DNA from: Planotetraspora mira
GTDB taxonomy: Bacteria > Actinomycetota > Actinomycetes > Streptosporangiales > Streptosporangiaceae
Direction: 5' to 3'
Length of the DNA stretch: 64,000 nt
Assembly: GCF_016863275.1 (NCBI RefSeq)
Contig: NZ_BOOO01000017.1
Coordinates: 62,001 to 126,000 of the forward strand
This document shows, piece by piece, positions 4,799 through 58,521 of this stretch. Position numbers and translations under genes: made by a program. Position 1 is the stretch's first letter; every line of letters begins with the position of its first letter. The notes beneath the pieces were generated by a model. It was not told the DNA's origin, ran no database searches, and worked only from the letters and a program-made list of their open reading frames with translations.

Positions 4799-7417
4799 TC
4801 ACGGGGCCTGCCCCATTTGCAGGACTCCGGCGACCGCCCGCCCTGTCATCGCGTGTAAACAGGCACCGAGGACGGCGACCGCGGCCACTCCGGCGGCCAG
4901 CAGCGACGGCGTCCCCAGACTGATCGGGAACCCGTCGACCGGCAGGCCGGCGTAGGCGGACAGATCGATGCCGGAGCCGAGTGCGAGCGGAAGCGCGAGT
5001 CCGAGCGCGAGGCCCGCGAGCGAGGCGAGCACGATCAGAGGCGCGATCTCCAGCACGGTCAGGCTCCGCGCCTGCCGCCGGGACAGCCCGGCGGTCCTCA
5101 GGTACGCGAGCGTGCGGGCCCGGTCCGCGGCGCCGATCATCAGCGCGATGACCACCGCCACGAGCGCGTAGCCCGCGAGAGCGACCGTGACGAGGGTGAA
5201 CGCCATCACGATCGTGCTCGTCAGCGGGCTGTCGGCGATCTTGCGCAGAGCGTCGTCGGCGGTCACCACGAGGACCTGCGGATCGTTCACGACCCTGGCC
5301 AGGCTCGCCCGGTCGGCGTCCCCCTTCACCAGCAGCGTGTTGGCGAACGGAACCGTCCCCGACCGCTTCGCCGCGTCGTACGGCAGGACGATCAGCTCGT
5401 CGCCGGCCTCGGCCAGTCCGGGCAGCGCGCTGATCGTGCCCCTGTTGACCGCCGTCATCCGCGCCGGCCAGCCGAGCTCGAACGTCGTCAGGCCGCTGAG
5501 CGACGGCGAGACCAGCGCGGGCACCCCTGCCGACACTCCGGGGGCCGGTGCGGGCACGACGAGCGGGGTGCCCGACGCCATCCGCCGGTAGGCCGCGAGA
5601 TCCACCGCGACGATGCGCACCCTGCGGCCGCCGACGCTGATCTGGGCGATCCCCTTGGCCACCGGCAGCACCTCCTCGACCCCCGGCAGTTCGCGCACCC
5701 GTTCGATGGTCCCGGGCGCGATGTCGGCGTCCCGTTCGATCCGGGCGGAGGCACCGACCTGCCGCCAGGCGGCGGTCCGCTGGGTGTCGCCGATCGCCTG
5801 GGAGACCACCGCCCCGAACACGGAGACTGCCAGCGCGGGCAGCAGGATCAGCACCGCCAGGGCGGCCGCCCCCCTGGCCCTGGCCGCCTGGGCGAGGGCG
5901 AGGAAGGGCACGGCCCGATGCCGTGCCAGCCGGCCGGCCAGGCGGAGCGGATAGGGGTAGCCGCGCTGCGTGACCAGTGCCGCCGCGAGCGTCAGCGCGG
6001 CCGGCACGGCCATCAGGAACGGGTCGCCCGCCTCCGCGGAGCCGCCGGTGAGGCCCCGGGTGGGCAGCAGGTATGCCCCGGCCAGGGCCAGACCGACGAC
6101 CGTCACCTCCGTGACGATCCTGCGCGGCGAGGGCCGCCGCAGGACGGCGTCCTCCCGCCGGCCGTTCAACGGCTCGCGGTAGGACCGGGCGAGCCGTACG
6201 ACGGGGAGGGCGATCGCGGCCAGAGCCGGGATCACGGGCCCGATCAGCGCGGCCGGGGTGACCGGGCCGGGCACCAGGAACGCCAGGCCGTACCCGAGCA
6301 GGACGGCCGGCAGCGCCGCGAGGGCCGCCACGGCGGAACCCGTGCCGACGATCCGGACCGGCCCCGCGCCCCTGGCCCGCATCAGCGTCAGCCCGGCGCG
6401 CATCCGCTCGGTCAGCAACTGCGACGCGAGCACGATGACGCCGACCGAGACCAGCCCGAGCCCGCCGAGGATGAGGAGCATCAGCGTCTGCGCGGTCGCC
6501 AGCTTCCTGAGGAAGCCGGTGAGCAGCGGGGAGAGGCCGGTCTCCAGCGTGTACTGGCCCATCACGGTGGACCTCCCGCCGACCATCCGGTTGTAGACGC
6601 CGAGAGCGTCCACCACGTCCGGGGCGTTGCGCGCGGTCACCGCACCCGTGTCGAGGCCGAGCACCCACGAGTACCGCACGCCGAGACTGCTGTCCATGTG
6701 GGCCAGGCTGTCCGCGCCGGTGAGCCCGGTGACCAACAGCTGGTCGATGTCGCCGCTGGGTCGCAGGCTCACGTGCGGGACGCCCCGGTTGTGCTCCCAG
6801 AACCCGTCCGCGGGATCGACGAGCTCGAAGAACCCGGTGACGCGGGCGGCGAGCCGCCCGTCCGCCCCGAGCAGCAGCGTCGAGCCGACGTGCAGGCCCA
6901 GCTTGTCCGCCGCCTCGTGCACGAGAGCGAGGTCGACCCGGTCGAGGTCCCGCCCGCCGACCCGGACACGCCCGGCGGGCCCCGGCGGGGCTCCCTCGAC
7001 GTAGCGCACGCGGCGGTCGGCCGCCGGCAGCCAGGCCAGGTCGACGAACTGAAAGTCCTGGTTCGGCTCCCCCACCCTGCCGACCACCGGCGTGCCGTAC
7101 GTCGACGCCCCGTAGTGGCCGTTCCCACCGGCCTGGACGACCTTCCGGAGGGCGGGCGGCAGGGCTCCCCGCCATTGGGCGTCCGCGGCGGCGAACCGCG
7201 ACGGGCTGGTGTACAGGTCGCCGATCGGTTGCGGCCAGAACGCCACGTCCAGGTCGACGAGGTCGGCGGTGCTGTCGTCCAGGACGCGGCGGAGGGAGTC
7301 GTCGTACGACTGCTCGAAGGTGCGCGGCAACACCGCCAGCAGCAAGGACGCGGTGAAGGCGAGCAGCGCGAGCGCCGCCGCCGCTCCTCGATGCGCCCGC
7401 AGAAGCGTGAAGGGCAT
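4799..7417 (-). CDS. FtsX-like ABC transporter permease
   Basis: An 872-residue membrane protein. An N-terminal transmembrane helix (about residues 8-30) is followed by a large extracellular domain of roughly 270 residues, a central bundle of hydrophobic helices (about 300-560), a second soluble region, and a C-terminal FtsX-type three-helix domain (about 730-865). This MacB/FtsX-like layout is found in ABC systems that act on lipoproteins, peptides or cell-envelope substrates. ATG 7417 shares one base with the stop codon of the upstream permease gene (TGATG), so the two are translationally coupled. No ATP-binding subunit is encoded on either side, so the pair must use an ATPase from elsewhere or work without one. 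Long antisense open frames across this gene are high-GC shadows. Confidence 0.88.
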   Translation of the reverse strand: MPFTLLRAHRGAAAALALLAFTASLLLAVLPRTFEQSYDDSLRRVLDDSTADLVDLDVAFWPQPIGDLYTSPSRFAAADAQWRGALPPALRKVVQAGGNGHYGASTYGTPVVGRVGEPNQDFQFVDLAWLPAADRRVRYVEGAPPGPAGRVRVGGRDLDRVDLALVHEAADKLGLHVGSTLLLGADGRLAARVTGFFELVDPADGFWEHNRGVPHVSLRPSGDIDQLLVTGLTGADSLAHMDSSLGVRYSWVLGLDTGAVTARNAPDVVDALGVYNRMVGGRSTVMGQYTLETGLSPLLTGFLRKLATAQTLMLLILGGLGLVSVGVIVLASQLLTERMRAGLTLMRARGAGPVRIVGTGSAVAALAALPAVLLGYGLAFLVPGPVTPAALIGPVIPALAAIALPVVRLARSYREPLNGRREDAVLRRPSPRRIVTEVTVVGLALAGAYLLPTRGLTGGSAEAGDPFLMAVPAALTLAAALVTQRGYPYPLRLAGRLARHRAVPFLALAQAARARGAAALAVLILLPALAVSVFGAVVSQAIGDTQRTAAWRQVGASARIERDADIAPGTIERVRELPGVEEVLPVAKGIAQISVGGRRVRIVAVDLAAYRRMASGTPLVVPAPAPGVSAGVPALVSPSLSGLTTFELGWPARMTAVNRGTISALPGLAEAGDELIVLPYDAAKRSGTVPFANTLLVKGDADRASLARVVNDPQVLVVTADDALRKIADSPLTSTIVMAFTLVTVALAGYALVAVVIALMIGAADRARTLAYLRTAGLSRRQARSLTVLEIAPLIVLASLAGLALGLALPLALGSGIDLSAYAGLPVDGFPISLGTPSLLAAGVAAVAVLGACLHAMTGRAVAGVLQMGQAP

Positions 7418-10400
7418 CAGTCCTCCCCGATCCGTACGGCACTGCCCGGCCCGTGCCCGGACAACCGGCGGGCCAGCGCCGCCACGATGGCCAGCAGGGC
7501 CACGGCGACTGCGGCCAGCAGCGCGACCGTGGGAGCCCAGGGGATGTCGAGCGTGACCGCCGGGGTGACCGCGGCCGCCTGTCCGGTGAGCACGATGTGC
7601 GGCACCACCAGCACGGCCATGACGACGGCGATCCCCGTGCCCGCGGCCAGCGACAGGACGACGACGAACGACTGCTCGACGGCGAGCAACCCGAACACCT
7701 GACGGTGGCTGACGCCGATCGCGCGCAACAGGGCGAACTCGGTCGTGCGCTCCCGCGCCACCACCGCGGCGTTGACCAGGAAACCGAGCAGCGCGAAGGC
7801 CACCGCCGACAGGAAGCCGAGCACGAGCGCACCCTGCAGTCCACTCGCCAGCGGGTCGTCACGGAACCGCCGGACGAGGGTCTCTCTGTCCACCACGGTC
7901 TGGTTCCATTCGGGGTGGTGGGCCAGCGCGGCCACGGCGGCGGAGGTGTCACCTCCGCCCGCGCTCAGCCACCACTCGGCGATGGGACGCGGCGCGCGTC
8001 CCTCGGTCAGATCCTGGTAGGCCAGCGTGCGGAGGTCGGTCAGCAGGGCCGGCTCGCCGGGGGCGGTTCCGGGCAACGCCGACGCGATGGCGACGGGCAT
8101 CACGAGCATCGTGGCCCCGCTCATGGTGACGGAGTCGGCCACGCCCACCTTCAGCCCGGCCTTGGCGGCCAGGTCGGCGGTGACCACTATCGGCAGCGCC
8201 CGGGTGCCGGAGGGAGCGCTCGGCATGACGGCCAGCCGCAACGGCTGGGCCGCCGCCTGGGCGGACGGAGGAGACACCCGAACGGTGAAACCGCCTGGTT
8301 CGACCGATTGCTCACCCACACCCGCCCAGGCCGTCAAGGCGTCGGGCAGCGGGACGGCGGCTCCCGTGTCGGTCCGCAGGCCGTCCAGCGCGGGTGTCAC
8401 GGCTGTCAGGTCGCCCGGGTCGGGCAGGTCCAGCAGCAGAGCCTGTACGGCGAGGGGATATGCCGGCCGGCCCGACCTCCCGGCGAGCGCCTGAAGGTCG
8501 AAGCGCACCTCCTGGCCGCCCTCCTCGAGAGAAACGGCGGCCGTCTGCTGGACGGTGCCGAGCGCGTCCACGACCGCCAGTCGCAACCGGACCTCCCCGT
8601 GCGCGGCGCCGGGGGGCGTGAGGCCGAGCCGTACGCGAAGGGACAGGGCGTGCGGCTCGCCGGGAAGCGGGATCGGCGACACCCGCGGGCGGGCGGCGGC
8701 GAGGTCGCGTCCGAGCCGCGGCACCGGGGAGGACACGAGGTCGTCACGCCACAACATGACGCCCCCGAGCCGGTCCGCGTCCATGGCGAGGAGGGTCGCC
8801 TGCGTCCCCGCGAAGTCCACCGTCTCCCGCTGAACGGGAGCGGCCTCGGTCACGCCGGGCAGCGCCCTGTACACCGCGCCCCGGCCGAGCCCGCCGAGCT
8901 CCGGCCATTCGGCGGGCGCGGAGACGCGCAGGTCGGCCCCCGCCTGATGGCGGGCCTGATCCTCCTGGGAGAGACGCCAGGTCGCGGAGGTGGCCAGCGA
9001 GACGACGCCGATGGCGATCGCCATCGTGAGCAGCAACGCGGGGCCCGCGTACCGCAACGGGCGGCGGCTGACCTGCGACGAGCCGAGCACGGGAGTGAGG
9101 CCGCGCCGCCGGGCCGTGAGCCGCTCGGCGATCGCCGACGCCATGGGGATCAGGCGCAGGCCCAGCAGGCCGCCGCAGAGCAACGTCAGGGCGGGTCCCG
9201 TCACGATCAACGGATCGATGCCCAGCCCGCCCGCGGCGGTCGAGGTGACCGGGGCGCCGTACAGTCCGAGCTGCCAGATCGCAAGCGCGGCCGCCGCGAG
9301 CAGAGCCACATCCGCCCCCGCGCGCTGGATGAACCCCCGCCTCTCCCCCCGCCCGCGGGCCGACCGCTCCTCGACGTAGGTGCGGCGCGCGCCGCGCAGC
9401 GCGGGCAGCACCAGCAGGACCGCGCACGCCAGCGCCACCGCGGCGGAGACGAGGAAGGAGGCCGCGTCGGGCACGGGCGCGAGCCGTACGCCTGAGGACC
9501 GGATCCAGGGGACGGCGCCCAGCGCGGCCAGGACCCACGGAGCCAGCAGCGGCGCGATCACCATCGCGGGCAGCGCGACCAGCAGCGCCTCGCCGGCGGC
9601 GAGCAGGCCGAGCCGTACGCCGCCCGCTCCCCGGGTGCGCAGCAGCGCCACCTCCATCCTGCGGTGGTCGGCCAGCAGCCGGGCGGTGAGCGTCAGCGCG
9701 TAGGCGGCGAGCAGCAGCAGTTGGAGGACCGGCACGAGCATCGTGGACCGCGCGACCAGCGCGGCCTGGTCGAGTTGCTCCAGCATGTCCGGCAGGCGGG
9801 TGAACGTGGCGCACGTCGCGCAGTCGCGCCTCAGGTCGTCGCCGAGCGCGGAGACGGAGGCCGCGAGAGTCCGCAGCCGGTCTCTCGGCAGGTCCCGCAG
9901 GTCCGGTTCCGCGAGCCAGGCCGCGGACACGTCGGTCGCGAAATACCGCTGGAAGTCGCCCGGCGCGACCACGAGCGGCCCGTAGGTGGTGTAGTTGCCC
10001 GTCTCGACGCCCCGGCGCAGCAGTTCGTCGCCCTTCCACCGGTCGTCGTACGGGTCGAGCAGGTCGAACACCCCGGCGACCCGCGCGCGCACCGGCTGGT
10101 GGCTGAGCCGCCCGACGACCGTGAAGCCGTCGCCGACGGTCAGGCCCATGGCCTGCGCGGACGACTGGGAGAGCGCGACCTCCAGCTCTCCCGCCTCCCG
10201 AGGCCAGGCGCCCGCGACGAGGCGGCTGCGCCGCTCGATCCCCTCGTAGGTCGCGAATCTGGTCAGGTCGGGCCGCTCACGCCGTTCCTGACCCGGCAGC
10301 GCGTACGAGTCGGACCGGATCGACCGGGTCACGGTGAACGGCAGGTCGCCGTAGGCGTCGCGGGCGTGGGAGCGGACGGCGGCGTCGACCTTCTGAAGGT

Positions 10401-10626
10401 CGCCCGAGCTGATCAGGGTGCTCACCCTGGCCGACGTCGTCGACAACGGGGCCACCGCCATGGCCCGCCGGACCCCGGACTCCGTCACCACCATGGCGTA
10501 GGTGATCAGCGCGACGAGCGCGGTGGTGGCCAGCAGGACGGAGCCGAACGCGGTGAGCAGCAGCAAGGGCTCACTGGAGGCACGCCGGAGCAGCAGTGGC
10601 ACCCGTCGTGCGCGCCCCGGCGCCAT
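7417..10626 (-). CDS. FtsX-like ABC transporter permease (large)
   Basis: A 1069-residue membrane protein and the first gene of a two-permease operon. It has an N-terminal membrane anchor (about residues 18-45), an extracellular domain, a central helix bundle (about 300-560), another large soluble domain, and a C-terminal FtsX-type domain (about 910-1060) with several hydrophobic helices. ATG 10626 was preferred over an upstream ATG at 10683 because it has a GGAG ribosome-binding site five bases away and the upstream start has none. Its stop overlaps the start of the second permease by one base. Substrate is unknown. The size and duplicated membrane bundle resemble actinomycete FtsX-like permeases that normally sit beside a MacB-type ATPase, which is missing here. 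Confidence 0.88.
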   Translation of the reverse strand: MAPGRARRVPLLLRRASSEPLLLLTAFGSVLLATTALVALITYAMVVTESGVRRAMAVAPLSTTSARVSTLISSGDLQKVDAAVRSHARDAYGDLPFTVTRSIRSDSYALPGQERRERPDLTRFATYEGIERRSRLVAGAWPREAGELEVALSQSSAQAMGLTVGDGFTVVGRLSHQPVRARVAGVFDLLDPYDDRWKGDELLRRGVETGNYTTYGPLVVAPGDFQRYFATDVSAAWLAEPDLRDLPRDRLRTLAASVSALGDDLRRDCATCATFTRLPDMLEQLDQAALVARSTMLVPVLQLLLLAAYALTLTARLLADHRRMEVALLRTRGAGGVRLGLLAAGEALLVALPAMVIAPLLAPWVLAALGAVPWIRSSGVRLAPVPDAASFLVSAAVALACAVLLVLPALRGARRTYVEERSARGRGERRGFIQRAGADVALLAAAALAIWQLGLYGAPVTSTAAGGLGIDPLIVTGPALTLLCGGLLGLRLIPMASAIAERLTARRRGLTPVLGSSQVSRRPLRYAGPALLLTMAIAIGVVSLATSATWRLSQEDQARHQAGADLRVSAPAEWPELGGLGRGAVYRALPGVTEAAPVQRETVDFAGTQATLLAMDADRLGGVMLWRDDLVSSPVPRLGRDLAAARPRVSPIPLPGEPHALSLRVRLGLTPPGAAHGEVRLRLAVVDALGTVQQTAAVSLEEGGQEVRFDLQALAGRSGRPAYPLAVQALLLDLPDPGDLTAVTPALDGLRTDTGAAVPLPDALTAWAGVGEQSVEPGGFTVRVSPPSAQAAAQPLRLAVMPSAPSGTRALPIVVTADLAAKAGLKVGVADSVTMSGATMLVMPVAIASALPGTAPGEPALLTDLRTLAYQDLTEGRAPRPIAEWWLSAGGGDTSAAVAALAHHPEWNQTVVDRETLVRRFRDDPLASGLQGALVLGFLSAVAFALLGFLVNAAVVARERTTEFALLRAIGVSHRQVFGLLAVEQSFVVVLSLAAGTGIAVVMAVLVVPHIVLTGQAAAVTPAVTLDIPWAPTVALLAAVAVALLAIVAALARRLSGHGPGSAVRIGED

Positions 10627-55494: not shown

Positions 55495-55532
55495 GATGAG
55501 GACCACGGCCCGCCCGGGCCACGGTCCTCATC
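55495..55532 (+). terminator. Terminator of phoX
   Basis: GATGAGGACC (55495-55504) pairs with GGTCCTCATC (55523-55532); inside, after an AC/AC internal mismatch, GGCCC pairs with GGGCC. It starts 15 bases after the phoX stop codon. The rest of the gap to 55696 shows nothing recognisable. Confidence 0.8.
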
Positions 55533-55696
55533 CGGGCGGACCCGGTCAGCCTGCGGTCGGTTCGGTCAGGTTGGCGACCAGGCGCGAGACGAGCACACGT
55601 GTTCTCCCCCATAGGTTCGACCTGCCGACGCGCAATCGAATCGTTCGCCACTACACCGACGAACGCGCAGGCGGCCGATACGCCTTCTCCCCCTGA

Positions 55697-58222
55697 TCAC
55701 GTCTTTGACGTGACCTGCGCGGCAAACCAGTCGAGTAGGGCGACAACAACGTCGAAGACCGCGATGTTGGCCAGCTGGGTTATCTTGACTGAGGGATATA
55801 GCTCCAGCTTTCCCACCGGGATGTCGACGCCGGGCGCGTCGTTGAGCCGTTGCCTCAGGTCTTCGCGCAGAGCCGGGTCGTCGAACGGGGGCCGCCTCTT
55901 GAGCGTGCCGAAGGGAATCGCGAACGTGTCGGCGTAGAAGCGGATTACGTGAATCTGCTTCCCATCAATTCTGATGATAGGTGCGCATGAAGCACCAGCC
56001 GAGGTGCCATGCTGCACCTCTCCTCCGCGCGCTCGCCAATGCTCCAGCACTCGCTGTACCGCGCCCGCCGCCTGAGGTCCGCTCGTCTCATTGAGCTGCT
56101 GAAAGAAACGCTTCTCGCGCTCCTCAACGACCTCGGTATCCAATTCGTCCTCACCGGCCAGCTCGGTCTCCGCAAGGTCCGCTGCCCCGGGAAGTCCCAG
56201 CAGCTCAGCGAGCTCGCGAGCGCTGATGTGCTGTCCAGGATCAGCCTGACCGTTCTCGTTCAGCTCGATTCCCTCAGCCTGCAGGACATCACGAACATCC
56301 CTATCGTCGTCTGGGTCCGTCCAGCGGAAACTTCCCGAAATCTGACCAGACTTGGTGAGCACCCGGTGGGCGTTGAATACCGGAACAGTGGCCAGATGCA
56401 CACCCACGGGAACGGCGTGCGAGCCGATCAGCTCCGCGAGATCGGAATAGGAGGTCCAGGTAGCGGGTGACAGTGCAGCCAGCGCATTGTGCAACAGGGT
56501 CCAGTCGCGTGAAGCTGCGGTGCCCCGGTCGGTCTCCTCGGGACCGGGCCAGATAGAGGTCGCCAGGTCAGCGAGCCGACCGGCTCGAGTGAGGATCTCG
56601 GCCTTGCCCCAATGCTCGGCAGCTGCGATCTCCTGGTTCATCACAAGGCCACTCTGTGCGAGTTGCTTGCGCTTGCGGGCGAAGGGCGTGTTCCCCAGTT
56701 CGGAGTTGTAACCACTGAGTGTGAGATTGCCCAGGGTGTGCACAAGCTGCCGGTGCACCAGGTCAGGGTCGTCACTGCCCCTGGACAGCTCGCTCACCCA
56801 ATCCGCGGTTGGGGTCTGTGGCAGGACATGCTCGATGGTGATCTGCTTTTCAGACAGATCCACCCGTTCCTTACTTCCCAGCGCTTCCTCGAGACGGCGT
56901 AGAACCAGCTTCTGCTGTGCCGGACGGCCCTGCCAGTAAAACGCCCGGTTACGGATCTCCTCACGCAGCTGATCGTCTGATGGCCAGTACAGCCGGGCCG
57001 GCGACAGCGCCGTGCGCACAGTCTGCGGTATCGACGGCTCGTCCGGGGACAGCTGCACGGCGAGCCGCTGGAAGATCCTGTTCAAGTTGTTAGTGGTCAC
57101 CCCGGCGATCAGCCGACGTACCAGAAAACTCTCGACGTAGAGAAGCGTCTCGGCGACCTCGTCATCATCGATGACATCGTCCTCGCGGAACTCCAGCAGC
57201 CGCATCACCAGCGGGTACGCGGTAGTGGCCTGCCAGGCGTCGAGGAACCTCATCCTCTGCGCCGTCGGGGAGTCGCCGACCGGGTCGAGGATCTGTTCCA
57301 GATGCCGGGCACGGCGGTGCAACTCCTTGACGTACTCCTCGACCTTCGCCTCGTCTCCGGCTATCTCGAGCAGGATCCGCTGATGCCCGCGGTAAACGGC
57401 GTTGTATTGCGCCTCGTCCCCTTCCCTGAGCACCAGCACCAGATACATCAGCTGTTCCATGGCCTTAGGCTTCAGCCGCTTCTGGATCGGGCGCCAGAAA
57501 TCGTCGTAGACATGCTGACCCCGCGTGGGCAGGCACATGAACACGTAGTTTCGGATCAGGTCTACCTGGCTCAGCCGCATGCCGGTGTTGTTGATCGACT
57601 CGAAGATCCGAAACGCGTTGTCGTCCTTCTCCACCAGGATCTGCACCAGGTTGAGCCGATCCAACAGCACCGACTCCACCCGCTCGATGTCATGCGGATC
57701 AGCCGGGTCGTCGAACTCCACCAGCATGCTCTTGAAGAACTGGTAGGCGTTGCCGACCAGGCTGCCGGTCCCTTGCTCTTGCACCTGGTCCACGCACGCC
57801 TTGAACGCCGCCCGGTCCCCCTGGGTGGGCAGCAAGCGGTAGCGCATCTCCCCGTGCTGGAACTTGTTGATCAGATGAAGCTCATCGATCCGCTCGCGAT
57901 GCTCTGGGTCTTCCGCCGTCAAGTGATCCCTGATCGCGCACAGTGCAAGCATCAGCGTGGTCAGCCGCTGCTGACCGTCCACCACGATCCACTGTGAACG
58001 ACTCGGTGCCAGATCCGGTCCCGGCGCCAGCACGACCGAACCGAGAAAATGACTCGGGGCGTCTTGTCGGCCATCAGCCAGTATGTCGACCTGAGCTTTG
58101 ATGTCCGCCCACAGTTGGGCAAGCTGATCGCGTTCCCAGGTGTACTGGCGCTGGTACAACGGGACCAGCAGTTGCTGGTCGCCCTGAATGAGCCGACGCA
58201 GGGTGGTCTCGTTCGCCTTCAC
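55697..58222 (-). CDS. DUF262-DUF1524 nuclease fused to an alkyltransferase-like domain
   Basis: An 841-residue defence-type protein. Residues about 5-260 are a DUF262 (GmrS/ParB-like) NTPase with PLYQRQYTWERDQL (21-34) and the key VDGQQR motif (81-86), plus IFESINNTG (207-214). Residues about 440-560 are a DUF1524 HNH nuclease with IEHVLPQ (463-469) and HTLGNLT (495-501). Residues about 575-655 resemble the DNA-binding half of O6-alkylguanine alkyltransferases, but the active-site PCHRV is NAHRV (617-621), so the Cys is Ala as in alkyltransferase-like (ATL) proteins. A further C-terminal domain (700-841) is unrecognised. GmrSD, BrxU and SspE relatives are modification-dependent type IV restriction enzymes. 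GTG 58222 has GGGAG upstream. The gene is visibly less GC-rich than its neighbours, suggesting transfer. No dnd/ssp modification genes are nearby. Confidence 0.88.
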   Translation of the reverse strand: MKANETTLRRLIQGDQQLLVPLYQRQYTWERDQLAQLWADIKAQVDILADGRQDAPSHFLGSVVLAPGPDLAPSRSQWIVVDGQQRLTTLMLALCAIRDHLTAEDPEHRERIDELHLINKFQHGEMRYRLLPTQGDRAAFKACVDQVQEQGTGSLVGNAYQFFKSMLVEFDDPADPHDIERVESVLLDRLNLVQILVEKDDNAFRIFESINNTGMRLSQVDLIRNYVFMCLPTRGQHVYDDFWRPIQKRLKPKAMEQLMYLVLVLREGDEAQYNAVYRGHQRILLEIAGDEAKVEEYVKELHRRARHLEQILDPVGDSPTAQRMRFLDAWQATTAYPLVMRLLEFREDDVIDDDEVAETLLYVESFLVRRLIAGVTTNNLNRIFQRLAVQLSPDEPSIPQTVRTALSPARLYWPSDDQLREEIRNRAFYWQGRPAQQKLVLRRLEEALGSKERVDLSEKQITIEHVLPQTPTADWVSELSRGSDDPDLVHRQLVHTLGNLTLSGYNSELGNTPFARKRKQLAQSGLVMNQEIAAAEHWGKAEILTRAGRLADLATSIWPGPEETDRGTAASRDWTLLHNALAALSPATWTSYSDLAELIGSHAVPVGVHLATVPVFNAHRVLTKSGQISGSFRWTDPDDDRDVRDVLQAEGIELNENGQADPGQHISARELAELLGLPGAADLAETELAGEDELDTEVVEEREKRFFQQLNETSGPQAAGAVQRVLEHWRARGGEVQHGTSAGASCAPIIRIDGKQIHVIRFYADTFAIPFGTLKRRPPFDDPALREDLRQRLNDAPGVDIPVGKLELYPSVKITQLANIAVFDVVVALLDWFAAQVTSKT

Positions 58223-58521
58223 GCCATCTCCCTCGCCGACCGTTTAGTGGTTCAAGCTCCTGCGCAATTCGCAAATCACGCGGAAGCGTAAGCCGCTCCA
58301 CCGTCGTCGGTCAGCCAAACGCACCAGTCCGTCCGGCCGAATCGTCCGTGTCAGCGGGTGTCCCAATGTCACGACAACCCAGGCGAACGGCCATCGGCCG
58401 CCGACCTGATGCCCGTTGTCTCTCTGATCGCCATCACTGCCGAGCAGTTGTCCGGATCGTTCCGCATCGAGCCTCGATGGTGTCTTACGACGGCCCCCTG
58501 TCCGGCGACAGGCTTGGCGAC

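Follow-up and report, generated by a model that had tools for sequence, protein, structure and literature searches.

How enzymes of the GmrSD family discriminate modified DNA is unsettled, and a single gene in a 64,000-nucleotide stretch of the Planotetraspora mira genome (contig NZ_BOOO01000017.1, positions 62,001 to 126,000; hereafter the window) makes the question directly testable, since it represents a subfamily in which a base-binding fold can be recognised. An earlier note on this DNA had described the product as a single chain combining a DUF262 NTPase, a DUF1524 HNH nuclease and a segment resembling the DNA-binding half of O6-alkylguanine alkyltransferase (AGT) with its reactive Cys replaced, as in the alkyltransferase-like (ATL) proteins, and had proposed this segment as the reader of a modified base. 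Sequence comparison identifies the motifs of the NTPase and of the HNH nuclease, a Cys-less AGT/ATL-type module and a separate C-terminal module, and with moderate confidence we take the protein for a type IV (modification-dependent) restriction endonuclease of the GmrSD family, encoded by a lone gene gained by horizontal transfer, whose specificity module has the ATL fold.

The GmrSD core

Both core domains are found by Pfam on the one chain, as had been claimed (Table 1). In an alignment of 73 relatives spanning the core, the NTPase motif is kept almost throughout (D82 in 72/73; G83, Q84, Q85 and R86 each in 73/73; N211 in 73/73), and the same holds for the residues of the HNH motif (E464 in 73/73, H465, N499 and K517 in 72/73 each, N506 in 71/73). 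These conserved residues are those of the (I/V)DGQQR motif and of the three GmrD motifs as given in a passage of PMC4619093, which supports the reading of the two domains as a single-chain GmrSD core with its predicted catalytic motifs.

Table 1. Features of the gene and of its insertion, in window coordinates
Feature	Position	Strand	Basis
GmrSD-family gene, 841 amino acids, GTG start, stop codon included	55697..58222	(-)	Open reading frame list, Pfam
Inserted cassette, approximate limits	55539..58448	(.)	Flank alignment to congeners; edges good to ~10 bases
GmrSD_N / DUF262 NTPase domain, residues 10-228	57539..58195	(-)	Pfam PF03235, E 2.1e-35
DGQQR motif, residues 82-86 (VDGQQR 81-86)	57965..57979	(-)	Conservation among 73 aligned relatives
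GmrSD_C / DUF1524 HNH nuclease domain, residues 413-552	56567..56986	(-)	Pfam PF07510, E 1.3e-26
ATL-type (AGT DNA-binding fold) module, residues 570-688	56159..56515	(-)	PF01035; PDB profile search
V604, arginine-finger position of AGT/ATL	56411..56413	(-)	Column 37 of the A1 module profile
NAHRV, residues 617-621, replacing PCHRV; A618 at the reactive Cys position	56357..56371	(-)	Alignment
F632-R633-W634 loop motif, kept in most modules	56318..56326	(-)	Aligned with YRW of E. coli Ada
C-terminal domain, residues 692-841; also on other proteins	55700..56149	(-)	Sequence comparison

The ATL-type module

When the whole protein is scanned, Pfam DNA_binding_1 (PF01035) matches residues 579-651 with E 1.5e-5 and 25.2 bits, which is under the 27-bit cut-off of the family. 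Residues 568-688 scanned alone score 32.2 bits (E 9.5e-8), over the cut-off. The same family is also matched at E<=0.001 by 34 of the 36 homologous segments when each is scanned alone (35/36 at E<=10), so that a chance resemblance can be excluded. A profile of the 36 segments run against all PDB sequences furthermore finds S. pombe Atl1 first (3gva, E 6.2e-9) and the ATL-type protein 2kif of Vibrio parahaemolyticus second (3.4e-8), followed mostly by AGT/MGMT chains.

In a census of the module at E<=1e-5 (profile), 94 distinct segments were collected from 175 loci, of which 9 have Cys at the reactive position, 10 have Trp and 75 have neither, and because retrieval of the relatives started from a query or profile lacking Cys, Cys-bearing forms may be thinned out in these counts. 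Among the 75 are an AGT misread by the alignment (L108) and a fragment (L089), and 65 sit on GmrSD-type chains, the window included, several of them as partial open reading frames. At the reactive position, these 65 GmrSD-linked modules never have Cys or Trp and mostly have Ala (53, among them the window). The claim that the Cys had been replaced was thus well founded, and since no reactive Cys is present in any of the 65, the module is not a repair enzyme; the reading as an AGT/MGMT repair enzyme, which would have PCHR(V/I) with a nucleophilic Cys in place of NAHRV, was accordingly rejected. Other positions have been retained: the columns of W589 and R620 are Trp and Arg in 65/65, the base-flipping Tyr (Y592 in the window) is Tyr or Phe in 56/65, and in the FRW loop (632-634) F is found in 50/65 and W in 51/65. 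The arginine finger, however, which is Arg in 17/17 stand-alone AGT and ATL proteins of the same set (9 Cys-type, 8 Trp-type), is Arg in just 5/65 of the GmrSD-linked modules and Val in the window.

Since this finger is missing too, the module is not just an O6-alkylguanine-reading ATL, and judged by its residues it is ATL-like without being an ATL in the strict sense. The analogy drawn in the earlier note therefore holds for the fold, the replaced Cys and Tyr592 and fails for the finger. A confident ATL fold with intact DNA-binding residues had been named there as support; sequence profiles do find the fold, and a model of low confidence backs it weakly (see below), but the DNA-binding residues are not intact.

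The module in other proteins

The module is not confined to GmrSD chains. Three McrB-type proteins (L159 8343-10448, L130 4983-7511 and L132 14395-16476) carry it before an AAA_5 domain, with A1 profile E-values of 3.5e-25, 2.3e-12 and 2.5e-11, respectively. For L159 a wider stretch, 7162-10448, was noted. Each of their genes is adjoined by McrC (PF10117 9.6e-55 in L159; open reading frames 54% (L132) and 51% (L130) identical to the L159 McrC) and lies about 4.0 (L159), 1.4 (L130) or 3.1 kb (L132) from a gene that joins the module to a GmrSD core (a GmrSD-ATL gene), which is the case in 3/36 of the regions centred on such genes. Upstream of the module a weak Mrr_N match is found in L159 (E 0.0071, below cut-off) and none is listed for L130 and L132. 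The modules of the latter two have Trp at the Cys position (GWHR, as in true ATLs), and since Lys and Arg stand one column past the finger column, their arginine finger may be kept. By eye only, the segment between module and AAA domain in the McrB-type proteins is EVE-like.

Two further proteins of ~637 amino acids (L079 2835-4751 and L080 2346-4259) have the arrangement Mrr_N-ATL-HEPN_RiboL-PSP, in which DNA_binding_1 scores over its cut-off (34.4 and 37.9 bits) whereas Mrr_N (E 0.0011 and 0.00039) and HEPN (1.1e-5 and 1.6e-5) are all below theirs. Neither has a PADLOC match at E<=0.001, and we regard them as candidate unlisted defence proteins. Among GmrSD chains the surroundings of the module vary as well: in L004 it follows a RAMA domain (2.4e-15), an arrangement seen by eye in L060 and L084-L086 too, in L043 it is followed by DUF4268, and in L047, L048, L068 and others it is located near the C-terminus without the last domain of the window protein. 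A stand-alone ATL-type copy of 115 amino acids (L083 / L140 9549-9896) has a weak PADLOC match to DruL4 (5e-4), a hint that a Druantia protein may contain an ATL-type module; by eye, this copy lies beside HEPN/nucleotidyltransferase toxin-antitoxin-like and AbiE-like pairs.

This occurrence at reader-type positions in unrelated proteins is the strongest support for a role as reader, which can be called partly supported; according to a passage of PMC11090510, the N-terminal parts of McrB are its specificity parts. A tree of the modules, built by a quick method from 92 rows and 93 columns, which are too few to prove one origin, needs 5 label changes for the GmrSD-ATL rows, with 1 forced by the starred branches, and places the McrB and HEPN modules outside the main group with weak support. 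More tentatively, and at somewhat less than even confidence, we propose that the AGT/ATL fold serves as an interchangeable reader cassette of immunity in at least three unrelated effectors (the GmrSD NTPase-HNH, McrB/McrC and an Mrr_N-HEPN RNase). Having lost the Cys, and the finger too in most GmrSD members, the cassette would detect a modified base of phage DNA, with the modification perhaps on the purine 6-position edge, and would capture it in another way than AGT and ATL proteins do. As such it would be a reader class beside SRA, EVE/PUA, RAMA, NEco and HARE-HTH. If the fold is indeed a shared reader, it would furthermore provide a handle for defence genes missed by present catalogues; PADLOC has no match at E<=0.001 for the two Mrr_N-ATL-HEPN proteins.

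Proposed mechanism and alternative explanations

In the window protein the ATL-type module would be the specificity part. It would bind DNA and use the former lesion pocket, of which Tyr592, the HR of NAHRV and the FRW loop are kept, to hold a base that is modified or a site that is disturbed, and this binding would let the DUF262 domain turn over nucleoside triphosphate and so license the HNH domain to cut, in analogy to SspE after its sensing of phosphorothioate. With the arginine finger gone, the base is probably captured by a different route than in AGT and ATL proteins. We infer the reader step from the position and exchange of the module, from the kept loop residues and from the role of McrB N-termini as specificity parts. 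A reader of a modified base, as first suggested, has thus become likelier by way of module swapping (McrB, Mrr_N-HEPN and RAMA-GmrSD), but not by the specific analogy to ATLs, for which the finger is missing.

Several observations weigh against the module as the specificity part. Apart from the missing finger and the possible thinning out of Cys-bearing forms, many DUF262-HNH relatives match over residues ~1-570 only, with no ATL module in the match, and the module is degenerate in five members (L046, L071, L072, L074 and L075). The structure models are likewise poor, with a mean predicted local distance difference test score (pLDDT) of 38 for the full length (AlphaFold2, 5 sequences) and of 47 for residues 560-841 (4 sequences). 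In the latter model part of the ATL stretch is usable, with most ten-residue blocks at pLDDT 60-85 and others at 36-50, and Foldseek run with it gives AGT/ATL entries as the first 20 of 37 matches, 2kif being first (probability 1.00) and none reaching E<=0.001; this is weakly in line with what the sequence shows and contributes little beyond it, and on the pocket or on residues 692-841 the models give nothing reliable. Finally, R86 and Y23 are aligned with R133 and Y63 of PDB chain 20yv, which from its matching residue numbering would be EcSspE, where R133 is needed for GTP hydrolysis and Y63 for phosphorothioate sensing according to passages of PMC13251355. The Y23 column is Tyr in 61/73 and Phe in 10/73, and sensing could therefore lie in the DUF262 domain instead.

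It may accordingly be argued that the module is a general winged-helix arm that holds DNA and places the nuclease, with DUF262 sensing the modification as in SspE. The absence of the finger from most GmrSD-linked modules, the existence of degenerate ones and the counterpart of Y63 all agree with such a function, as does the sequence-unspecific binding by the helix-turn-helix of AGT described in a passage of the review PMC10779285. We nevertheless consider it rather unlikely. All these DUF262 proteins keep a P-x-Y-Q-R motif, so the presence of Y23 would not be diagnostic, mere holding would not seem to need the HR and FRW loop residues that most modules keep, and the module has been swapped into McrB and HEPN proteins at the places where specificity parts sit. 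That the whole protein is a phosphorothioate-sensing effector of the SspE type is very improbable in our view. Profiles of SspE do match (PADLOC best 8e-24; PDB 6jiv E 4e-10), alongside the PADLOC profiles of Orf5 and HEC-06, but DndC (TIGR03183, E<=0.001) gives no match in the own genome, in a search without positive control as 0/14 control genomes came over the cut-off, and since there is no conserved neighbour family, no ssp/dnd cluster is seen travelling with the gene, SspB-D not having been searched separately.

A function in DNA damage is made improbable on other grounds. The module might detect O6-alkylguanine-like lesions and the core cut at them, either as a repair incision comparable to archaeal ATL-EndoV or as suicide, and ATLs are after all its closest fold relatives by profile. 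AGT-EndoV and ATL-EndoV fusions described in a passage of the review PMC10779285 moreover provide a precedent for an AGT-type fold joined to a nuclease. However, the GmrSD core, the PADLOC Orf5, HEC-06 and SspE matches, the patchy distribution (38/297 genomes) and the empty site at the insertion fit mobile defence better, and the arginine finger is missing. The own genome in addition already has genes for a Trp-type ATL (L111) and for two PCHRV alkyltransferases (L112 and L116), and a phage modification is favoured over damage, since a nuclease triggered by O6-alkylguanine would endanger the chromosome of a cell so equipped. Plain O6-alkylguanine damage is likewise unlikely as the ligand of the proposed specificity module, because the host's own DNA would be marked too.

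Acquisition and distribution of the gene

The GTG start is backed by many relatives whose alignment begins at the same first residue. The gene is a one-gene insertion of ~2.9 kb, and in flank alignments the same site is empty in 3/4 congeners, where 37, 66 and 159 bases separate the flanks; the fourth congener has them on different contigs. The GC content is 62.1% for the gene and 62.3% for the inserted stretch (~55539-58448) compared with 71.0% in the remainder of the window, in which no equal-sized stretch is as GC-poor as the gene (0/280 overlapping stretches). Lower GC and an empty site in congeners together support horizontal acquisition, which had been suspected from the GC content. No terminal repeats or integrase were noticed by eye at the insertion edges, and no repeat search was run. 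Just before the edge, at window 55495-55532, there is a hairpin that one congener shares; it resembles a terminator belonging to the upstream gene and may show where the insertion took place.

Matches spanning residue <=2 to >=834 are found in 38/297 genomes of the family, taken as Streptosporangiaceae, the own included, and in the own genus 1/4 other genomes matches, via the C-terminal domain only. Among plasmids, 1/1152 matching records covers >=80% of the query; it comes from a Streptomyces plasmid, where the relative and type I-E CRISPR-Cas genes share a stretch of 18.5 kb. A phage origin was rejected: the matches in 9 phage records are all confined to residues 1-562, none covering 80%, and no relative was found on viral contigs. 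The frame is broken near residue 455-465 in three GmrSD-ATL relatives (L003, 6001-8536, L033 and L067), which would be decayed or switchable copies.

Neighbours were compared over 41 regions, of which 36 were centred on a GmrSD-ATL gene (window included) and 5 on other module carriers. A conserved operon partner was rejected, the commonest neighbour family occurring in 5/41 regions when the gene's own family is set aside, and the gene is thus isolated, as had been stated; the clustering merged the three McrB genes with the family of the GmrSD-ATL gene because the module is shared. The window copy is solitary between two flanking genes, presumably PhoX-like and isochorismatase-like by their sequences, and some relatives have genes for N6 methylases, McrBC or CRISPR systems nearby. 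Three GmrSD-ATL genes, in loci L131, L132 and L134, have an HNH_2 protein in their vicinity, which Pfam identified on the copy of L131 (7422-8357).

The C-terminal domain

The extra C-terminal domain had been left without assignment and has remained so, since Pfam gives no match to residues 692-841 and the PDB none that is credible (best E 0.33). In an alignment of 25 sequences of the domain, made without L043, the invariant residues are G42, F80, R86, F89, N103, P119, L126 and W141 (segment numbering). The domain also ends a congener protein (L005) with a weak HEPN_RiboL-PSP match (E 0.0011, below cut-off) and likewise a protein of 396 amino acids (L176 5266-6456; tblastn 2e-6) from a gammaproteobacterial plasmid of Candidatus Methylocalor cossyra, and it can therefore be seen as a shared module too. 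Probably it is a second sensing, regulatory or assembly part, common to other immunity-like proteins. A relationship to DUF4268 was considered and rejected; DUF4268 replaces the domain in L043, but a profile comparison made without L043 matched nothing. The N-terminal half of the plasmid protein is PD-(D/E)XK-nuclease-like by eye, which no tool confirmed, and its gene adjoins annotated transposition genes (TniB, two transposases and a PinE recombinase).

Relation to known systems

The combination of GmrSD with PF01035 is not new. Machnicka et al. reported in 2015 (PMC4619093, in passages on GmrSD homologues) that PF01035, described there as a domain from 6-O-methylguanine repair proteins, occurs in several GmrSD homologues, mainly from Streptomyces, which are of the same architecture class as the window gene. 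In the abstract, section 13 and further passages of that paper, neither the loss of Cys and finger nor any occurrence outside GmrSD was seen to be mentioned. The open-licence literature, which is weak evidence in this respect, likewise yielded no treatment of the lost Cys and finger or of reuse in McrB and HEPN proteins, and a term look-up found "alkyl" absent from PMC11090510, PMC12839542, PMC10853773, PMC12704722 and PMC10952713 and "MGMT" absent from the first four. What we have not met in the literature is the loss of Cys and finger, and the reuse across effectors.

Like the GmrSD type IV enzymes Eco94GmrSD and BrxU (PF03235 and PF07510), the window gene encodes DUF262 and DUF1524 on a single chain with the DGQQR and GmrD motifs, but unlike these it has an extra ATL-type module and an extra C-terminal domain. 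The structure of BrxU has no obvious modified-base pocket, as stated in a passage of PMC8565348, which would leave room for an added reader in this family. SspE (6jiv, 20yv) shares DUF262, DUF1524 and the aligned Arg of DGQQR, whereas the ATL-type module of the window protein is outside the match and no dndC was found in the own genome by the search without positive control described above. The best PDB profile matches of the module, the ATLs of S. pombe (Atl1, 3gva) and V. parahaemolyticus (2kif), have the reactive Cys replaced and Tyr at the Y25 position in common with it, and differ in that the window module has Ala for the usual Trp, Asn for the preceding Pro and no arginine finger, and instead an invariant Trp589, the FRW loop and a fusion to a nuclease. 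The McrBC systems with an ATL-type module (L130, L132 and L159), finally, show a related module built into a restriction machine of a known, modification-dependent kind, although with a GTPase and McrC their effector differs from that of the window.

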